Of a stretch of DNA of 24,160 bases, positions 14,351 to 21,645 are shown in pieces (position 1 is the first letter of the stretch; each line of letters begins with the position of its first letter). The stretch is taken from the IMG/VR virus record IMGVR_UViG_3300028025_003953, positions 1-24,160 of that record; one strand, given 5' to 3'. The stretch is from a virus. The notes beneath the pieces were generated by a model. It made no database searches, had not been told where the DNA came from, and was given only the letters and a program-made list of their open reading frames with translations. The translations under genes and the position numbers were made by a program.

Positions 14351-15514
14351 ATGAACCTACTCAGAGTTACTATAGTAACCGCGATGATCTTTACTGCCGC
14401 ATTCGTTGCGGCACTTTACTCAGCAAATCCAACGCTCGGCTCGGAGGGTGAGCCGCCATATTTTGTGAATCAAACACAAGATTACTGGATTGAACTCAGC
14501 GAACCTGGGACTTTGGAAATCTGGACAGATCTCTGCCCAGATTCCACAAGCGCTTGGTGCGACAATCTTGTGGACTCCATGCTCTGGCTTTACGACAATC
14601 AGGGAAACTTGATTGCCGCAAATGACGATGCTTGGACCGAACATACTGGGAACTACTCACTGGCTTCCTACATCATTATGAGGGACTTGCCAGCATCTGA
14701 GTATAGGCTACGGGCTGGTCGTTGCTGCGGCAACCCAGAGGCGCAGTTCTACAACAATGGTTCGTATTGGCTTTGGACAAATGTGGGTGCCACGATTGAT
14801 CCAAATCCACCTGATCCAGAGTGGACACCGACTCCGCCGCCACCGCCAACCCCTGAGCCGACACCGACTCCAGAGCCGACCATTGAGCCGACTCCAGAGC
14901 CTACCCCTACCGAGACACCAGAACCGCCTGCACCAAGCCCTAGCGTGGCTCCTAGCCCTACGCCAGAGCCTTCTGTAGAGCCATCCCCGACACCCCAACC
15001 GACTCCAGAGCCGACACCTGAGCCGACCCCTGAGCCAACGCCAGAGCCTACGCCAGAGCCAACGCCTGAGCCGACGCTGCCGCCAACGCCGCAGCCAAGC
15101 ATGGAGCCGTCAATTGAACCAACACCGAACCCGACTTCCACACCCGAGCCGTCGCCCGAAGCGACCGATTCGCCCGAGCCTGTGGTATCTCCTGATCCCA
15201 CTAGCGTTCCTTCTCCTGAGCCAGAGCAGCCCACTCTGCCGTCTCCCGTAGAGATTGCAAGTGCTGCTGTTGAGGCTGTCGGTGAAGCAGTCGCTGCTGT
15301 AGGCGAGGCTGTCAGTGAGGCAGTCGAAGTAGTTTCAAATCTTGGTAAAGACCTATCACCAGTTGAAAGGGAAAAGGCTCGCGAAGCCGTGCTACCAGCA
15401 ATCATTATTACTCAGGTAGCGCAGGCTGCTGTTGCTGCTGCTTCAATGGCAGCGCGACCGACACCTCCGCCTTCTGGGTCTAGCACGACCTCAAGGAGTA
15501 AGAGCAATGTTTAA
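14351..15514 (+). CDS. Secreted proline-rich protein with N-terminal beta domain
   Basis: 387 residues. Residues 1-25 form a signal peptide or membrane anchor (N-L-L-R, then a hydrophobic stretch). Residues about 35-145 look like a pre-peptidase/DVUA0089-type beta sandwich, with a D-S-M-L-W-L-Y-D-N-Q-G core followed by A-A-N-D-D, and four cysteines (62, 70, 125, 126) fitting disulfides outside the cell. Residues about 150-302 are a Pro-Thr-Glu-Ser linker containing six exact-period PTPE units. Residues about 305-340 form an Ala/Val/Glu amphipathic helix, and 350-375 a hydrophobic Ala-rich helix that could be membrane-bound. A phage protein that is exported and spans a cell wall could act in lysis, attachment or superinfection exclusion, but the role is unknown. 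A GAGGAGG site precedes ATG. Confidence 0.7.
   Translation: MNLLRVTIVTAMIFTAAFVAALYSANPTLGSEGEPPYFVNQTQDYWIELSEPGTLEIWTDLCPDSTSAWCDNLVDSMLWLYDNQGNLIAANDDAWTEHTGNYSLASYIIMRDLPASEYRLRAGRCCGNPEAQFYNNGSYWLWTNVGATIDPNPPDPEWTPTPPPPPTPEPTPTPEPTIEPTPEPTPTETPEPPAPSPSVAPSPTPEPSVEPSPTPQPTPEPTPEPTPEPTPEPTPEPTPEPTLPPTPQPSMEPSIEPTPNPTSTPEPSPEATDSPEPVVSPDPTSVPSPEPEQPTLPSPVEIASAAVEAVGEAVAAVGEAVSEAVEVVSNLGKDLSPVEREKAREAVLPAIIITQVAQAAVAAASMAARPTPPPSGSSTTSRSKSNV
14999..15070 (+). repeat. Six tandem 12-base repeats encoding PTPE
   Basis: Six consecutive 12-base units with consensus CCNACNCCNGAG are in frame with the secreted protein (residues 217-240). They differ mainly at third codon positions, so the array is held by protein selection and is not a very recent expansion. 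Further imperfect units flank it on both sides. Confidence 0.85.
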
Positions 15515-15677
15515 GAAGGCAGTAAACGATATCGTCGCCGCTGGCTGGACCATCTTTGGTCTTGCTATTGCATGGGCAGTTCTGCCCGACGGATCAACTC
15601 GTGACTTTGTTGGCACGACTCTGTTGATTCTAACAGTTCTCTGGGCAGCGACAATGCCGCTCAGGATCAAGGAGTAA
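15507..15677 (+). CDS. Small two-helix membrane protein, holin candidate
   Basis: 56 residues from ATG 15507, chosen because AAGGAG lies at 15493-15498; a longer in-frame ATG would overlap the upstream gene much more. Two hydrophobic segments (about 8-27 and 34-50) are joined by a short polar turn, with positive charges at both ends. This is the size and layout of small class II holins. It overlaps the secreted-protein gene by 8 bases and lies two genes before the endolysin, which supports a lysis or membrane role. Confidence 0.6.
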   Translation: MFKKAVNDIVAAGWTIFGLAIAWAVLPDGSTRDFVGTTLLILTVLWAATMPLRIKE

Positions 15678-15959: not shown

Positions 15960-16595
15960 ATGAAGTTTAAGGTCAAGTCACAACTAGACCACGTTGAAAA
16001 GGGCGGAATTCTGGATGACTGCGGTCCTTCCAGCGTGGCTGCCCTAGTCGCTTGGGCATCAAAGTACAAGGTTGATCCCTCTGCTGCAGATGGAATCAAC
16101 GCAAAGGCAAAGGCAACTGGCTTTGTAGAGAAGCAGGGCGTATCCGATAACGGATCATCTCTTGCTGATCTTATTAAGACGGCAAAGGTCCTCGGCGCTA
16201 CCGCTCGATGGGCTAAGTCTTGGGATGATGTTGTCGCCTCTGCTACTCGCGGCGCTGGTATTGGCGTTTGGGTGCAGCAGCCTGTTGGCTATCCAGTAGG
16301 TCTAGAGATCTCTGAGTGGCACAAGCGCTGGGAGAAGTGGTGGGGTCCTAAGGGTGGCGGCGGGAAGAAAGACCCGAAGCACCTGAAGCAGGGCTACGGT
16401 CACATGACCGCTGCTGGTTGGGATGCCGTTGATGGCTGGCAGTGGGCTTGCCCAACTCGCTCAGGCAAAGGCAAGGAGCAGTTCGCCGTTAAGGTGACTG
16501 AGGCACAACTCAAGCAGATCGCCGACTCCAAGCGTATTGCTGGCAAGGACAAGGCTCTACCGCACAAGCACGTCATTATTGTTGAATGGAAGTAG
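15960..16595 (+). CDS. C39-like cysteine peptidase, probable endolysin
   Basis: 211 residues. A D-D-C-G-P-S-S motif places the likely catalytic Cys at 21, and Y-G-H-M-T places the catalytic His at 148 with Asp at 155 or 158 nearby. This is the Cys-His-Asp arrangement of C39/papain-like peptidases. Length and position, directly before a holin-like gene, fit an endolysin cleaving the peptide part of the cell wall. No signal peptide and no separate wall-binding domain were seen, so it would need a holin for export. An AAGGAGAG site precedes ATG. A C39-like peptidase acting on a protein instead cannot be excluded. Confidence 0.72.
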   Translation: MKFKVKSQLDHVEKGGILDDCGPSSVAALVAWASKYKVDPSAADGINAKAKATGFVEKQGVSDNGSSLADLIKTAKVLGATARWAKSWDDVVASATRGAGIGVWVQQPVGYPVGLEISEWHKRWEKWWGPKGGGGKKDPKHLKQGYGHMTAAGWDAVDGWQWACPTRSGKGKEQFAVKVTEAQLKQIADSKRIAGKDKALPHKHVIIVEWK

Positions 16596-16603
16596 GAGTA
16601 AAT

Positions 16604-16897
16604 ATGTACGCAGATCTTAAGGCATGGCTCAAGCATATCAAGGACAACACGGGCATCGATGAGGCGCTCGTTGAGTTCCTTCGCACCTTTGTGACGGTTG
16701 CAATCTCCGTCGCTCTTGGTCTTGGCATCCCGCTTCTGGACATTCAGGGCGGCGACTTCCGAACCATTCTGTCGGCTGGACTCGCTTCTGGTCTTCAGGT
16801 TCTGGTCAAGTACCTAGACCCAAAGAACAGCGCTTACGGCGTTAAGGAGAAGGCTCCTGAAGATCCTGATGCTGACAACGTTCAGTACGGTATCTAA
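16604..16897 (+). CDS. r1t-like holin
   Basis: 97 residues from ATG 16604, preceded by TAGGAGT. One segment (about 26-47) is hydrophobic, then a polar G-G-D-F turn leads to a second (about 53-69), followed by an acidic soluble tail. The order F-L-R-T-F-V...hydrophobic...D-x-R-T-I-L-S-A-G-L-A-S-G resembles r1t-type holins of phages of Gram-positive hosts. Its place directly after the endolysin and before the terminator supports this. It would form the membrane lesion that releases the endolysin. Confidence 0.75.
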   Translation: MYADLKAWLKHIKDNTGIDEALVEFLRTFVTVAISVALGLGIPLLDIQGGDFRTILSAGLASGLQVLVKYLDPKNSAYGVKEKAPEDPDADNVQYGI

Positions 16898-16957: not shown

Positions 16958-17120
16958 GCCAGAGAACGTAAGTTGCCGTCAAGTTGAAGAGCAATGTGAG
17001 GAATACAAGAGCCTTAAACTTTAGTTTCTTTTCTGCCTCAACCTTCTCTGCTCGATTGATCATTCCGACGGCTCCGATCAGCCATCCAAGGAACAGGTAC
17101 GCAAACGCGACGTTTTCCAT
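16950..17120 (-). CDS. Small membrane protein with two hydrophobic segments
   Basis: 56 residues, translated directly from the minus strand, starting at ATG 17120 with AAGGAG upstream and ending at TAA 16950-16952. Two hydrophobic segments (about 4-21 and 36-53) flank a strongly charged middle (R-A-E-K-V-E-A-E-K-K-L-K). It overlaps the end of the preceding metallopeptidase-like gene by 43 bases and is the last gene of the minus-strand unit. It could be a holin-like or membrane-modifying peptide; the role is not known. Confidence 0.6.
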   Translation of the reverse strand: MENVAFAYLFLGWLIGAVGMINRAEKVEAEKKLKFKALVFLTLLFNLTATYVLWQK

Positions 17121-17524
17121 GCTCGGTTCTCCTTCTTTGTCTTGAGGCGAGCATTGCGATACTCGCGTGAGGTTGTCTTCTTGAGTTCTGCCGCTTGCTC
17201 TGGCAGATACCAGTCATACAGCCTATAAAGTGCGCGCGCCCACTTCGTTGTGTGCGCATCGCCAGTCCAGATGTGGGCTAGTTCGTGCAGCGCAGTGTCA
17301 AAGTCATTAGAGCACAGGACGATCTGGTTCTTATCGAAGTCAGTCACTCCCATTGCGTGATCAGTCCGCATGCCATTGGGATGGTAATGCAGTTTGATGC
17401 TCTTTAACTTGATGCTTCGCTCCCTGACGACCCTATCCATCAGTTCCAACGTGGCAAGCCACGGAATCAATGACTCTTCAGTCATGTCCTTGTGCCTGAT
17501 CACTCGGAATATGTAGTCAGCCAC
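17078..17524 (-). CDS. HExxH metallopeptidase-like protein
   Basis: 148 residues. H80-E81-x-x-H84 within A-L-H-E-L-A-H-I-W, followed by H91, matches a zinc-metallopeptidase site (HExxH-x6-H, third ligand possibly H91). The rest of the protein is helical with a basic C-terminus. Similar SprT/WLM-like small proteins occur in phages, and what they cut is unknown. The start is a GTG one base after the methyltransferase stop, with GGAG upstream; an in-frame ATG at codon 14 is an alternative. No signal peptide, so it acts in the cytoplasm if active. Confidence 0.65.
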   Translation of the reverse strand: MADYIFRVIRHKDMTEESLIPWLATLELMDRVVRERSIKLKSIKLHYHPNGMRTDHAMGVTDFDKNQIVLCSNDFDTALHELAHIWTGDAHTTKWARALYRLYDWYLPEQAAELKKTTSREYRNARLKTKKENRAWKTSRLRTCSLDG

Positions 17525-17525
17525 G

Positions 17526-18206
17526 TCACTCCACCTTTCGGTACACGAAGAATCGACCCTTCCAGTCAGTGCCGTCGAACATTCGGTTTAGGACAGTCTC
17601 GTTGTTTAGGATCGGCACAAGCATCGGTTGACGCTCGCCAATCCGCTTCTCCCACCAAGAGCGTTCCTTCATGGTCACATGGGTAACGTCTACATCGGTC
17701 TCTGCAGATGCGCCATCGGACAGCGCAATGCGCAGCCAGAGTTCGCCTCCTACCTTGAGAACACGGTACATATCGTCAATGATCTGGTCAACCTTTGACT
17801 CATCAATGTGCTCAAAGAACTCCCATGACGTGACGATATCAAAGACGCTCGATGCGTATGGCAGACCGTACTCAACATTGGCAAGGGTCAAAGCGCCCTT
17901 TGCCATTGGAGCGCAGTTCTCTACGGCATACTTGCTGATGTCCACGCCGAGAGCCTCATGACCACGGACGTTGCAGTGATGCACGAACCAACCCTTTGCC
18001 GCGCCAACGTCGAGCATAGTCAAGCCACGATTGCCGTGTGGCGACTCGATCAGGCTAATGATCTCGTTCCAGCGCGGGTCGTCGGCGTAGTTGCGGTAGT
18101 TCGATCCCTCAGCGCGCTCGAAGTAGCCTTCGTTGTAGCGAGCGTCAAGCACCTCATCCAGCGAGGCGTTGTGGTGCTGTATGTCTAAGTCCTTCATGTA
18201 TCCCAT
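17526..18206 (-). CDS. Class I SAM-dependent methyltransferase
   Basis: 226 residues. Motif I, L-D-V-G-A-A-K-G-W-F, lies at 65-74, an acidic end of strand 2 is D89 in G-V-D-I-S, and F-D-I-V-T-S-W-E-F-F-E-H-I at about 122-134 is the post-motif segment of Methyltransf_11-type enzymes. The substrate is not evident: no DNA-methylase D/NPPY motif is present, so a small molecule, sugar or protein substrate is more likely. It starts at ATG 18206, immediately after the stop of the zinc-ribbon gene, with GAGAGG upstream. Confidence 0.85.
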   Translation of the reverse strand: MGYMKDLDIQHHNASLDEVLDARYNEGYFERAEGSNYRNYADDPRWNEIISLIESPHGNRGLTMLDVGAAKGWFVHHCNVRGHEALGVDISKYAVENCAPMAKGALTLANVEYGLPYASSVFDIVTSWEFFEHIDESKVDQIIDDMYRVLKVGGELWLRIALSDGASAETDVDVTHVTMKERSWWEKRIGERQPMLVPILNNETVLNRMFDGTDWKGRFFVYRKVE

Positions 18207-18398
18207 CTATTTCCTCTCAGCCTTTCGATCCTTTTTAGCCCAGCCTTTGCCCTTGTAGGTGAGGCTCGCTGGGAAGACAAATTGCTTCCGCATTGTACCA
18301 CCACATTCACAGGTCAATACAGGAGTCTCCGCGTCAATGGGGAACTTGTGCTCTTCGGTCTTCTTACAGGTACTGCAGGTAAAATCGTAAGTTGGCAT
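18207..18398 (-). CDS. FmdB-like zinc ribbon protein
   Basis: 63 residues with C8-x2-C11 and C30-x-C32 in the layout M-P-T-Y-x-F-x-C-x-x-C...C-x-C-G-G-x-M, typical of FmdB-family putative regulatory zinc ribbons. The second pair is C-x-C instead of C-x2-C, as often seen in the family. The C-terminal 20 residues are strongly basic, suggesting nucleic acid contact. It overlaps the preceding stop by one base and abuts the methyltransferase. Confidence 0.8.
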   Translation of the reverse strand: MPTYDFTCSTCKKTEEHKFPIDAETPVLTCECGGTMRKQFVFPASLTYKGKGWAKKDRKAERK

Positions 18399-18913
18399 CA
18401 GTTTTTACCAGCAACTCGTTCTATCTTTACCCTGATAACCCCAACCCCGAGGCTGGCAAACTTCAGGAAGATTACTGGGCTAAGGTCAATGATGCCGCCG
18501 CCGACGCAGCCGCAGTAATCCCTGACCTTGCACAGTGCAGTCTTGCCGCTCTTGATTTCAGTAATCCTAACCCAGAACGGTTTCTGGTGGTACTTGAACC
18601 CAGGAACTGCGCAGTAGTTGACGACCTCATCTTCCCATCCGCCTTGAGCCAGCGTCCTGTACGGGGTGCAGGTATACCTATAACCGCCGTAGCAGAACTG
18701 GTAGTTCTTATTGCTAGAAGTTGAGCCATACCACGTCGCCTTTCCGATCTGAGGGTCTGGAACAAGGCTCGGCTTAGGGGTCGGCTCTGGCGTACGTTGT
18801 GGAGTTGGAGTGACTACGATAACTGGCTGGTCAATGGCAGTGTCGAACGGTCGGAACGCAAATCCGATAGAGCCGACGACAAGAGCCAATGAGATAACCA
18901 TCAGTCGCTTCAT
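18398..18913 (-). CDS. Secreted RlpA-like (double-psi beta-barrel) protein
   Basis: 171 residues. Residues 1-20 form a signal peptide or N-terminal anchor, 35-54 a proline-rich linker (T-P-T-P-Q-R-T-P-E-P-T-P), and about 57-167 a double-psi barrel: G-K-A-T-W-Y-G, V-R-I-T-E, D132, and a final I-I-D-L-S-P with D143. Six cysteines (74, 82, 101, 128, 134, 136) suggest disulfides outside the cytoplasm. RlpA-like enzymes cut peptidoglycan glycan strands. Whether this one is active or only binds is not clear. It starts with an ATGA overlap with the preceding gene, so it is coupled to it. Phage copies are unusual outside lysis cassettes. Confidence 0.75.
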   Translation of the reverse strand: MKRLMVISLALVVGSIGFAFRPFDTAIDQPVIVVTPTPQRTPEPTPKPSLVPDPQIGKATWYGSTSSNKNYQFCYGGYRYTCTPYRTLAQGGWEDEVVNYCAVPGFKYHQKPFWVRITEIKSGKTALCKVRDYCGCVGGGIIDLSPVIFLKFASLGVGVIRVKIERVAGKN

Positions 18914-19425
18914 GCTTCCTCCTTTTTTGGGATTGGCTTTAGGTCTGGCTGCGGAACTCGCTTGTAGCCTCGCCCCGTGTCATCGCCAATCTTCCAGCCT
19001 TCTTCAGCCGTGATCCAGCCGATGACATCTACCATCTTAAAGCCGCTCTCTGGCGTTGGATGCGCAAGGACAACGAAACGCTTGAGCGCAACGTCCTTCT
19101 CTCGGACAACCAAGCCGTTGTGCGGCTCTCGGATTCGCTTTACCTCAATGTGCTGCCCACAATCAGGCTCATCAGCGTGCTTCCAATGCTCGGACGCAGC
19201 CCACACTTTGGCGTGCCACTTCACTCCGAACACCTTCGCCACCGCGCATTCAGCCGCTGCTGCGGCGAATGAAGCGACCGAATCATCTTCCATCAGAGCG
19301 CGGTCGTAGTAGGGCTTGTCTTTGCTGTTGACATTCGCAGCATTGCGACCGTCGCCTACCTGCTTAGCCTGACGGAGTTCCTCATCCGTGAGTTCCACCA
19401 TCAAGCCGCGTGGCTTGTACTCCAC
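18910..19425 (-). CDS. PD-(D/E)XK-like nuclease candidate
   Basis: 171 residues. A D88...E94-V-K96 arrangement (P-D-C-G-Q-H-I-E-V-K) plus E59 on an upstream helix fits a minimal PD-(D/E)XK core. The rest shows V-V-L-A-H and V-I-G-W-I-T-A strands and a Pro/Lys-rich tail. A DNA-processing or host-DNA-degrading role would fit, but the fold is inferred from a short motif. The GTG at 19425 overlaps the preceding TAG by one base and has only a weak Shine-Dalgarno; an in-frame ATG nine codons in is an alternative. Confidence 0.55.
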   Translation of the reverse strand: MEYKPRGLMVELTDEELRQAKQVGDGRNAANVNSKDKPYYDRALMEDDSVASFAAAAAECAVAKVFGVKWHAKVWAASEHWKHADEPDCGQHIEVKRIREPHNGLVVREKDVALKRFVVLAHPTPESGFKMVDVIGWITAEEGWKIGDDTGRGYKRVPQPDLKPIPKKEEA

Positions 19426-19799
19426 TAGTCAGTACCTGCGTATGGTGCGTACTCCGCTTCTTTCTTTTGCATGAGAATGATCGGCATGCAATGACCCTTC
19501 TCTGCGGCGTACATACCCATGATGTTAAAGTCGACCCACTCGATTGCTTCTGTGTGGTGATCGCCGCCGCAATCTCCGTCCCCAGCATCTTGACAATCGT
19601 CAACGAACTGCGTGAAGAAGTGGTCTACAAGCAACTCGTAGTCATAGACTGGGAGTTCCTCATGGTGACCGCTGGCATTGAAGTGTGTAGAAACGCCAAT
19701 GATGCAATCGTCTAGACCGCTGAACAGCAGGGTTCCAACTTCTACATCGAAGCCGTTGACCTCAATCGGATCGTTTGTTTCAATAATGCTAGACACCAT
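19425..19799 (-). CDS. Hypothetical acidic protein
   Basis: 124 residues, very acidic, with a D-x-C...D-C-G-G-D-H-H cluster around residues 67-82 that could bind metal. I do not recognise the family. GGAGGATC precedes ATG 19799. The start overlaps the regulator gene by 11 bases, so it is likely co-translated. Confidence 0.6.
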   Translation of the reverse strand: MVSSIIETNDPIEVNGFDVEVGTLLFSGLDDCIIGVSTHFNASGHHEELPVYDYELLVDHFFTQFVDDCQDAGDGDCGGDHHTEAIEWVDFNIMGMYAAEKGHCMPIILMQKKEAEYAPYAGTD

Positions 19800-20208
19800 A
19801 GAGATCCTCCACGCTGATAGACAGCAACTTTACGAGATGTGGAATTCGCCAAGATCTTGGAGAACGGATACCCCGCTCCCACATGCTGACCGTGACTGCT
19901 CTCACGCCCAGTGCCTCGCCGAACTTTTCTTGGCTCATGTTAGATGCCTGTCGGAACTTGCGGATATTCCGCGCCATTGCCCCGACGTTCTCCACGAAGT
20001 CCTGATCTCGGACCTTGTAGACAGATTTCTCAAACGGTCGGATTGCCTCTGAGTTGACGACGACAGCGCTGCCGCTGCCTTCGATCTTCAGGACGTAGTA
20101 ATCCAGTTGCGCGCCGTCTGCCGTAGCAGCCTTGACGCGAGACTTCATTACCTCACCGACAACCAAGACCTTCTGACCCTGCTTGTACGAGAAATCTACA
20201 TCGCTCAT
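19789..20208 (-). CDS. XRE-type helix-turn-helix regulator with N-terminal beta domain
   Basis: 139 residues. Residues about 1-60 form a small beta domain (SH3/KOW-like alternation, unusual for a classic repressor). Residues about 78-137 form a Cro/CI-type HTH: R-N-I-R-K-F-R-Q...M-S-Q-E-K-F-G-E-A-L-G-V...V-S-M-W-E-R-G. The domain is complete. It is a candidate to act on the divergent operator region at 21.7-21.9 kb, but no direct link is visible. The start has an ATGA overlap with the upstream gene. Confidence 0.8.
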   Translation of the reverse strand: MSDVDFSYKQGQKVLVVGEVMKSRVKAATADGAQLDYYVLKIEGSGSAVVVNSEAIRPFEKSVYKVRDQDFVENVGAMARNIRKFRQASNMSQEKFGEALGVRAVTVSMWERGIRSPRSWRIPHLVKLLSISVEDLYGV

Positions 20209-20861
20209 CGTGGGGTAACTCCGCCGCTATAGATCCTGAACCAAGAGGCTTTTGCCTTCTGGAATTCATCGTACTCGTTGCGACCAACCGTTTCAGATGC
20301 AAGCATCTTCACGAAATCAACTGGGTCAACTTCGGCATCCTCGCGAGTGAAGCAATCATGATTCAACTTGTAGTGCTCCATCTCTTCGGACTTAGCATCT
20401 TCGCAGTTGTCTTCGCACGGGTCCCAAGCGGTTGCAATCTCCCAACTTTGCGAATACAGAATCTCTCCGTCCTTTGGGACAGTATGACGAGATCCGAATC
20501 CGTATAGGTCGCGATGCTTGCTTGCGCTTCTAGGGTATGCGAACGCTAGGTTCACAAACTCAGTCGCTAGAAACTTCTGACCGTTGAACGACTCTGCTAC
20601 CGCCATCAGTTCATCGATAGTCGTGTGACCATCGCGAACGGCATTCGGAGCAGTAGCGTCCTTAGATCCCGTATACCCGAAGGTACGCTTCAGATAAAAG
20701 TTCCCAACGTCCGTCTGAACCTTCTCTGGGATCGCAAGATTTTCTAGGACACCAAGTTCGATCTGGTCTGCCATTGTTTTCTCCGAAGATGTATGTGGCA
20801 TCTCCGCAGACGGCACAAGGAGGACCGTTTCCAACCGTTCTGCCTGTACGCTTCCGCTCAT
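20205..20861 (-). CDS. Hypothetical protein (start uncertain)
   Basis: Up to 218 residues from ATG 20861, which overlaps the preceding TAA by one base and has a strong AAGGAGG upstream. The first 29 residues look weak, and ATG 20774, with GGAG before it, would give 189 residues beginning M-A-D-Q-I-E-L. The body has an F-A-Y-P-R-S segment and an acidic C-D-N-C-E-D stretch. No family was recognised. Bases 20662 to about 20886 also carry a second protein-like frame with a C-A-V-C-G zinc-finger-like segment, so the true gene structure of the 5' end is unclear. Confidence 0.6.
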   Translation of the reverse strand: MSGSVQAERLETVLLVPSAEMPHTSSEKTMADQIELGVLENLAIPEKVQTDVGNFYLKRTFGYTGSKDATAPNAVRDGHTTIDELMAVAESFNGQKFLATEFVNLAFAYPRSASKHRDLYGFGSRHTVPKDGEILYSQSWEIATAWDPCEDNCEDAKSEEMEHYKLNHDCFTREDAEVDPVDFVKMLASETVGRNEYDEFQKAKASWFRIYSGGVTPR

Positions 20862-21019
20862 TAGACTTCCTCCTTCCCTTCTTCAACGCAGGTTCCACAT
20901 TCGCACTCGTCGCAGCACTCTGAGAGATCAGAGCACTTGAGGCAGTCGCAGGAGTCGCATTCTCCTGCAATTGCCGCGACGAAGATAAGCGTTTCTGCCT
21001 CATCGTCTAACTCAAACAT
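20861..21019 (-). CDS. Cysteine-rich mini-protein
   Basis: 52 residues, translated directly from ATG 21019 to TAA 20861-20863. The first 20 residues are acidic and hydrophobic. Residues 21-44 hold nine cysteines (21, 24, 26, 29, 35, 36, 39, 41, 44) in C-x2-C and C-x-C pairs. The pattern is suited to metal binding (metallothionein- or Zn/Fe-S-like). It starts two bases after the SSB-candidate stop without its own strong ribosome site, so it depends on coupling. The stop overlaps the next ATG. Confidence 0.7.
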   Translation of the reverse strand: MFELDDEAETLIFVAAIAGECDSCDCLKCSDLSECCDECECGTCVEEGKEEV

Positions 21020-21021
21020 TC

Positions 21022-21645
21022 TTAGAAGGGAATGTTCTCAACAGGGGCGGTCGACTTAGCGTCAGCCCCAAAAAGATCATTAACCTTCTGCATGTACTCG
21101 CTATTAGGGTCAACCTGCTGCGTCTCTACGCGGACAGGCTCCTGCGTCGCTGGACTTGACACGACAGGGCGGCGGCGTGAGCCGAGAGCCTTAATCGTGA
21201 CGATGCGGTTGCGCTGCTTGCCGTCCTTGCCGACGTACACGATCAGCGAAACATTGACTTCCTTACCAATCAGGTCATCAGTGTTGCTGTTCGGAACACG
21301 CGACTGAAGGTCGGAGATACCGTTAGCAGCAAGGAAGAACTGACGAGCAATGCTTGCCGTGCCGTCCTTCTTGAAGCCCATACGGGTTGGGTCAACGTCC
21401 TTCCACGACCAGCGGCTCTCCACAGGAGTTCCATCGATGTCGGTAAGCGGCTCGTTGTCCGCGAACGACACGATGTCGAACTTGATTGTAAAGACATTGA
21501 TCGGCTTGCCCTCAAAGTTCGGCTTTACCGCTTCCTTGATCTCGATGATCCGAGCGCGGTAATCCTCATTTCCTGGCAATGGCTTTCGATCAGCCAATTC
21601 GCCGCCGCCCAACTCTTCTGGGCTAGGTACTGTGTACTCTGGCAT
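21022..21645 (-). CDS. Single-stranded DNA-binding protein candidate
   Basis: 207 residues. The middle (about 25-155) is beta-rich and OB-fold-like, with R-x-R-I-I-E-I, N-V-F-T-I-K-F-D-I and G-K-E-V-N-V-S-L-I-V-Y strands. The C-terminal 50 residues are disordered, ending in E-N-I-P-F, close to the D-D-I-P-F tip that SSB proteins use to recruit replication partners. This tip and its place as first gene of the early minus-strand unit, divergent from helicase, support the call. The OB domain is not the standard bacterial SSB type, so it may be a phage-type SSB. AAGGAGT precedes ATG 21645. Confidence 0.65.
   Translation of the reverse strand: MPEYTVPSPEELGGGELADRKPLPGNEDYRARIIEIKEAVKPNFEGKPINVFTIKFDIVSFADNEPLTDIDGTPVESRWSWKDVDPTRMGFKKDGTASIARQFFLAANGISDLQSRVPNSNTDDLIGKEVNVSLIVYVGKDGKQRNRIVTIKALGSRRRPVVSSPATQEPVRVETQQVDPNSEYMQKVNDLFGADAKSTAPVENIPF

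Follow-up and report, generated by a model that had tools for sequence, protein, structure and literature searches.

A putatively exported double-psi beta-barrel protein encoded outside the lysis block of a phage genome

Phages whose hosts are unrelated repeatedly encode small RlpA-like proteins, and such proteins have been noted in cyanophages (PMC4916379; PMC7431792). The phage products called 'rare lipoprotein A' (those of S-CRM01, S-PM2, S-CBP4, Sinorhizobium phiM12 and RcRudolph), several of them annotated as lipoprotein precursors, are likewise small double-psi beta-barrel (DPBB) proteins, and the placement of their genes varies. That of S-CBP4 is found among structural genes. In the Rhodobacter phage RcRudolph, the gene (L060 3057-3389) immediately precedes that for the terminase small subunit, an arrangement resembling the one in the 36-38-kb phages described below. 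The similarity of these products to the protein studied here is weak (32%, E=0.2 for that of RcRudolph). When one phage RlpA-like protein was used for comparison, 65 isolate records matched it. A much closer homologue is A0A6J7X0K2 from an uncultured Caudovirales phage (UniProt/BFVD), a protein of 169 aa with the same domain and 82% identity over 171 columns; its name, 'RlpA-like protein double-psi beta-barrel domain-containing protein', is a database annotation only.

Here, we analyzed the gene for such a protein in a 24,160-bp stretch of DNA (the window), which comprises an entire IMG/VR record, is without terminal repeats, and is likely a fragment of a phage genome. Table 1 lists the features discussed. 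The open reading frame proposed in a preliminary description of this DNA proved to be real; it shares 4 nt at its start with the upstream gene and 1 nt at its stop with the start of the next one. Between 20861 and 17078, neighbouring genes of this minus-strand unit overlap or abut, with gaps of 1 nt at most, and are therefore likely co-transcribed. The unit also contains DNA-related genes and encodes a zinc-ribbon protein and a methyltransferase. The product of 17078-17524 contains a zinc-peptidase-like HELAH motif, and its Pfam matches were weak. The protein encoded by the overlapping upstream gene showed 69% identity to its counterpart in a 36-kb phage with the same DPBB type, and no match to it was found in the synteny relatives G003 and G004. 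It was also observed that the phrog_13182-family gene adjoins the DPBB gene, or lies one gene off, in the window and in G001 and G003-G007, in either order. On the plus strand, the tape measure, tail and collar genes are followed by those for a PTP-rich exported protein (14351), a lysin-like protein (15960) and a holin-like protein (16586), and from 21944 this strand encodes a PD-(D/E)XK nuclease and DnaB. The unit with the DPBB gene is convergent with the late operon. Promoter and terminator matches around the DPBB gene were not clearly above chance. The gene layout suggests that the DPBB gene is expressed early or in the middle of infection, and this suggestion of early timing is stronger for the window's own arrangement than for the other phage groups.

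Table 1. Features of the window considered in this work, with positions in the 24,160-bp stretch.
Feature	Coordinates	Strand	Description or basis
DPBB protein gene	18398..18913	-	171 aa, ATG start; ORF, and DPBB by Pfam, PDB profile and fold
Minus-strand unit	17078..21645	-	ORF coordinates
Upstream overlapping gene, phrog_18407	18910..19425	-	Sequence comparison
phrog_13182-family gene	19425..19799	-	Neighbourhood of the DPBB gene in phages of the window type and of 36-38 kb
HTH regulator, same minus-strand unit as the DPBB gene	19789..20208	-	Pfam HTH_3, 8.5e-10
Lysin-like (C39-like cysteine peptidase motifs) and holin-like genes, presumed lysis block	15960..16897	+	Sequence, conservation
N-terminal export segment MKRLMVISLALVVGSIGFAF..., no lipobox	18824..18913	-	Hydrophobicity scan
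Proline/threonine-rich linker VVTPTPQRTPEPTPKPSLVPDP and flanks	18749..18823	-	Sequence
DPBB domain: T60 (TWY), D132 (VRD), C134/C136, D143 (IDLSP)	18401..18748	-	Conservation

The cell-wall-type domain attributed to this protein beforehand was recovered by several routes. Pfam DPBB_1 (PF03330) matched residues 85-164 with E=7.9e-5 and 23.3 bits, under the curated cut-off of 28.8, and the homologue L018 passed this cut-off (31.2 vs 28.8 bits). The family profile, compared with solved structures, found kiwellin (2.5e-6) and loosenin (7.7e-6), and not RlpA, as the nearest. AlphaFold models matched expansins, PA4485, kiwellin, loosenin and the Streptomyces papain inhibitor SPI over nearly the whole domain, with rmsd values of 2.1-3.4 and Z scores of 10-12, on a scale where Z of 7-8 can be chance. 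The second half of the AlphaFold model was confident, and residues 66-95, close to the putative groove, mostly had pLDDT values <50. Collectively, these models and profiles predict a DPBB fold for the window protein.

The protein had also been described as secreted, and its N-terminus is of the export type: a hydrophobic segment (12-residue Kyte-Doolittle mean of 2.57) is followed by VVTPTPQRTPEPTPKPSLVPDP, suggesting that it is exported. A hydrophobic N-terminal segment was present in all the family members examined, and a lipobox in none of them. Cysteine counts were even (2, 4 or 6) in 80/80 distinct DPBB cores, as expected of disulphides outside the cytoplasm. The six homologues nearest to the window protein, each of 138 aa (L002, L007-L010, L012), lack the linker, and several other relatives carry PSP/PTP linkers. 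The likeness of this linker to that of the 14351 protein, pointed out in the preliminary description, is real but generic, and we rejected it as a sign of shared function because family members can do without the linker.

Next, the conserved residues of the barrel were considered. T60 and D143 were invariant in 24/24 members of A2; the T60 position is Ser in some wider relatives, and of the 80 distinct wider cores, 76 retained D-x-C-x(1,2)-C together with D-[LI]-[SA]-P. In BsEXLX1, the pair is Thr12/Asp82, and Asp82 is the counterpart of the catalytic Asp in MltA (PMC9888185). T60 and D143 were matched to this pair by motif and not by residue-level structure alignment. This correspondence supports a glycan-directed protein and is neutral between cleavage and loosening.

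Since the DPBB protein would be made outside the late lysis operon, its most likely role is remodelling of the host wall before lysis by a Sec-exported, non-late protein, rather than that of the main lysin; we consider the chances of this reading about evenly balanced. We infer the export, disulphides, timing, glycan ligand and role as follows. The small protein would be exported by the host Sec pathway, and the proline/threonine linker would position the disulphide-stabilised DPBB domain outside the membrane. There, the domain may bind host cell-wall glycan by the groove that Thr60 and Asp143 mark, and would loosen or locally trim it. Being encoded in a non-structural unit (presumably early or middle) and not in the late lysis operon, the DPBB protein would remodel the envelope of the infected cell before lysis and would not be the main lysin.

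One point against remodelling is that the same fold serves non-wall roles, as in SPI and kiwellin. RsRlpA acts as a protease inhibitor (PMC7662947), and loosenins showed no lytic activity, peptidoglycan included (PMC9888185). Because SPI and RsRlpA share the DPBB fold, a secreted inhibitor of their type, which would shield the phage or its exported proteins from host proteases, is conceivable, and we regard it as quite improbable. The Papain_Inhib model (NF041659) was the best NCBIfam family for the window protein (E=4.9e-4), and SPI matched the domain model with a Z score of 10.6 and 26% identity in the structural alignment. The NCBIfam score of 20.1 bits is, however, far under the equivalog cut-off of 150, the rlpA model TIGR00413 matched more members (17/24 at E up to 1, the best at 1.6e-5, with no match for the window protein itself), and a common fold proves no function.

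The DPBB gene lies outside the lysis block. The claim that it is located away from the lysis cassette stood as far as strand and transcription unit are concerned, the two being convergent, but just three genes lie between it and the holin-like gene, which is 1.5 kb away. The lysin-like and holin-like genes gave no Pfam or PHROG match. The lysin family (15960-16595) was present in at least 517 IMG/VR stretches, and no match to it was found among isolated phages. The two genes are separate in the window and fused into a single ORF (about 377-508 aa) in the 36-38-kb phages and G010. The PTP-rich exported protein (14351-15514) and a tiny gene downstream of it (15507-15677) adjoin the lysin in several phage groups that otherwise differ.

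The proximity to the holin-like gene would suit an accessory lysis factor, i.e., a lytic-transglycosylase-like DPBB protein that aids the C39-like lysin and the holin in late wall breakage. RlpA has the DPBB (PF03330) as its catalytic domain (PMC6895207), and an RlpA-family protein was proposed as the lysis gene of cyanophage PA-SR01 (PMC7431792). In the literature searched, lysis in this one cyanophage is the sole role put forward for phage RlpA-like proteins. We nevertheless consider this reading rather unlikely. The DPBB unit is separate and convergent, both in the window and among its synteny relatives: in L004, L005, L069, L071, L072 and L073 the DPBB gene is on the strand opposite to the lysin and 1.3-1.8 kb off, as in the window. 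Furthermore, the DPBB gene is kept despite the presence of a lysin/holin block, and it lies 1.3-8.7 kb from the lysin in the 23 loci with both genes. In the other groups, the DPBB gene is mostly on the same strand as the lysin, 3-9 kb away. In some of the 36-38-kb phages it is placed between the replication genes and the terminase side, and in G006 and G007, two of these phages, it precedes the terminase and shares a 4-nt overlap with a RusA-like gene. In the 36-38-kb phages it is co-directional with the late genes, so that late expression could also occur there.

The DPBB gene was found in 125/186 IMG/VR loci examined, with 80 distinct cores; many of the loci were recruited via the DPBB gene itself, and some are overlapping pieces of one contig, so this proportion is not a prevalence. 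When recruitment was by the lysin alone, 19 loci extended ~9.5 kb or more downstream, and 11 of these have a DPBB gene there. L070 and L074, which share the lysin, have no DPBB gene in the stretch covered, and their gene order there differs. Viral contigs searched with the single window protein gave no match, and the relatives were retrieved with alignment queries. Among isolated phages, the window protein had distant matches only, the other family members had no match, and there was no near match to the DNA of the region. Plasmids searched for DPBB relatives contained none. The median dN/dS values were 0.11 and 0.20 in two groups of relatives, showing purifying selection. The tail protein of the window was nearest to Gordonia/Tsukamurella/Rhodococcus and Geobacillus phages (23-27%), and the terminase of a related phage to Streptomyces and Pontimonas phages (about 30%); this hints at a host among the Actinomycetota, and the likeness is too weak to assert it.

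Secreted bacterial proteins commonly have PTP linkers and DPBB domains. Capture of a host-like secreted protein by the phage, as suggested previously, fits the fold and the linker style, but recent capture is not supported, since two scans of 84,980 prokaryote genomes for short exact patterns, which distant relatives could escape, found no cellular relative. That the gene is a mere passenger of this kind, with no role in infection, is very improbable: the lack of a cellular relative in these scans, the low dN/dS, the occurrence of the gene in >100 loci and the conserved slot all stand against it.

Most window genes with relatives were closest to those of G003/G004 (lysin 93%, nuclease 70%, methyltransferase 76%). 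The window DPBB protein, however, had 57-61% identity to those of the 36-38-kb phages and just 31% to that of G003. In the tree, it grouped with the 36-38-kb phage proteins (99/99), and a tree constrained to place it with the same-slot proteins was rejected (p-AU 1.2e-6); the tree had 121 columns and one long branch, and the tested group was named after the identities had been seen. Because the window DPBB protein groups with a different phage lineage though the slot is kept, it looks as if the slot holds a DPBB gene in the window relatives and the window copy was exchanged from another lineage. This kept slot with a swapped occupant is the less expected point and worth following. It might reflect superinfection exclusion, where an exported protein of a non-late unit coats or modifies the envelope and blocks the adsorption or DNA entry of competing phages, as swapping between lineages may be expected under phage-phage competition. 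Occupant swapping has other causes, though, and no match to the known or candidate defence models listed in PADLOC was found at E 0.01; we think exclusion unlikely. Tentatively, with the odds well against it, one non-late slot kept for an exported DPBB protein with an exchanged occupant may be a dedicated wall-acting infection module, for remodelling or exclusion, that is distinct from lysis.

Compared with the septal lytic transglycosylase RlpA, the window protein has the PF03330 DPBB domain in common. RlpA has a lipobox and a SPOR domain, whereas the window protein has neither, so 'RlpA' in the earlier label is just loosely right; the window protein also falls under the DPBB_1 cut-off. Strict RlpA membership was rejected, as the lipobox is absent in all members, Pfam shows DPBB_1 only, and the barrel is the end of the protein. 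Loosenins and expansin D1 (9ce9, BsEXLX1) are also single exported DPBB domains with the TWY Thr and the DLSP Asp, and Cys replaces the expansin Tyr in the window protein, as in loosenins (PMC9888185); loosenins are fungal, whereas the window protein is from a phage, and its substrate is putative. Expansin D2 (CBM63) is absent, since the Pfam scan found nothing after the barrel of the window protein. SPI (5ntb) is a small secreted DPBB protein too, and inhibition is putative here. With the 82%-identical homologue already named RlpA-like and many annotated isolates, this kind of protein is already known; small phage RlpA-like proteins are widely annotated, and the window protein is mostly a well-supported further example. 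Its >100 loci, conserved slot outside the lysis block and defined Thr/Asp pair make it a concrete system in which to ask whether the host wall is reshaped by phages before lysis.
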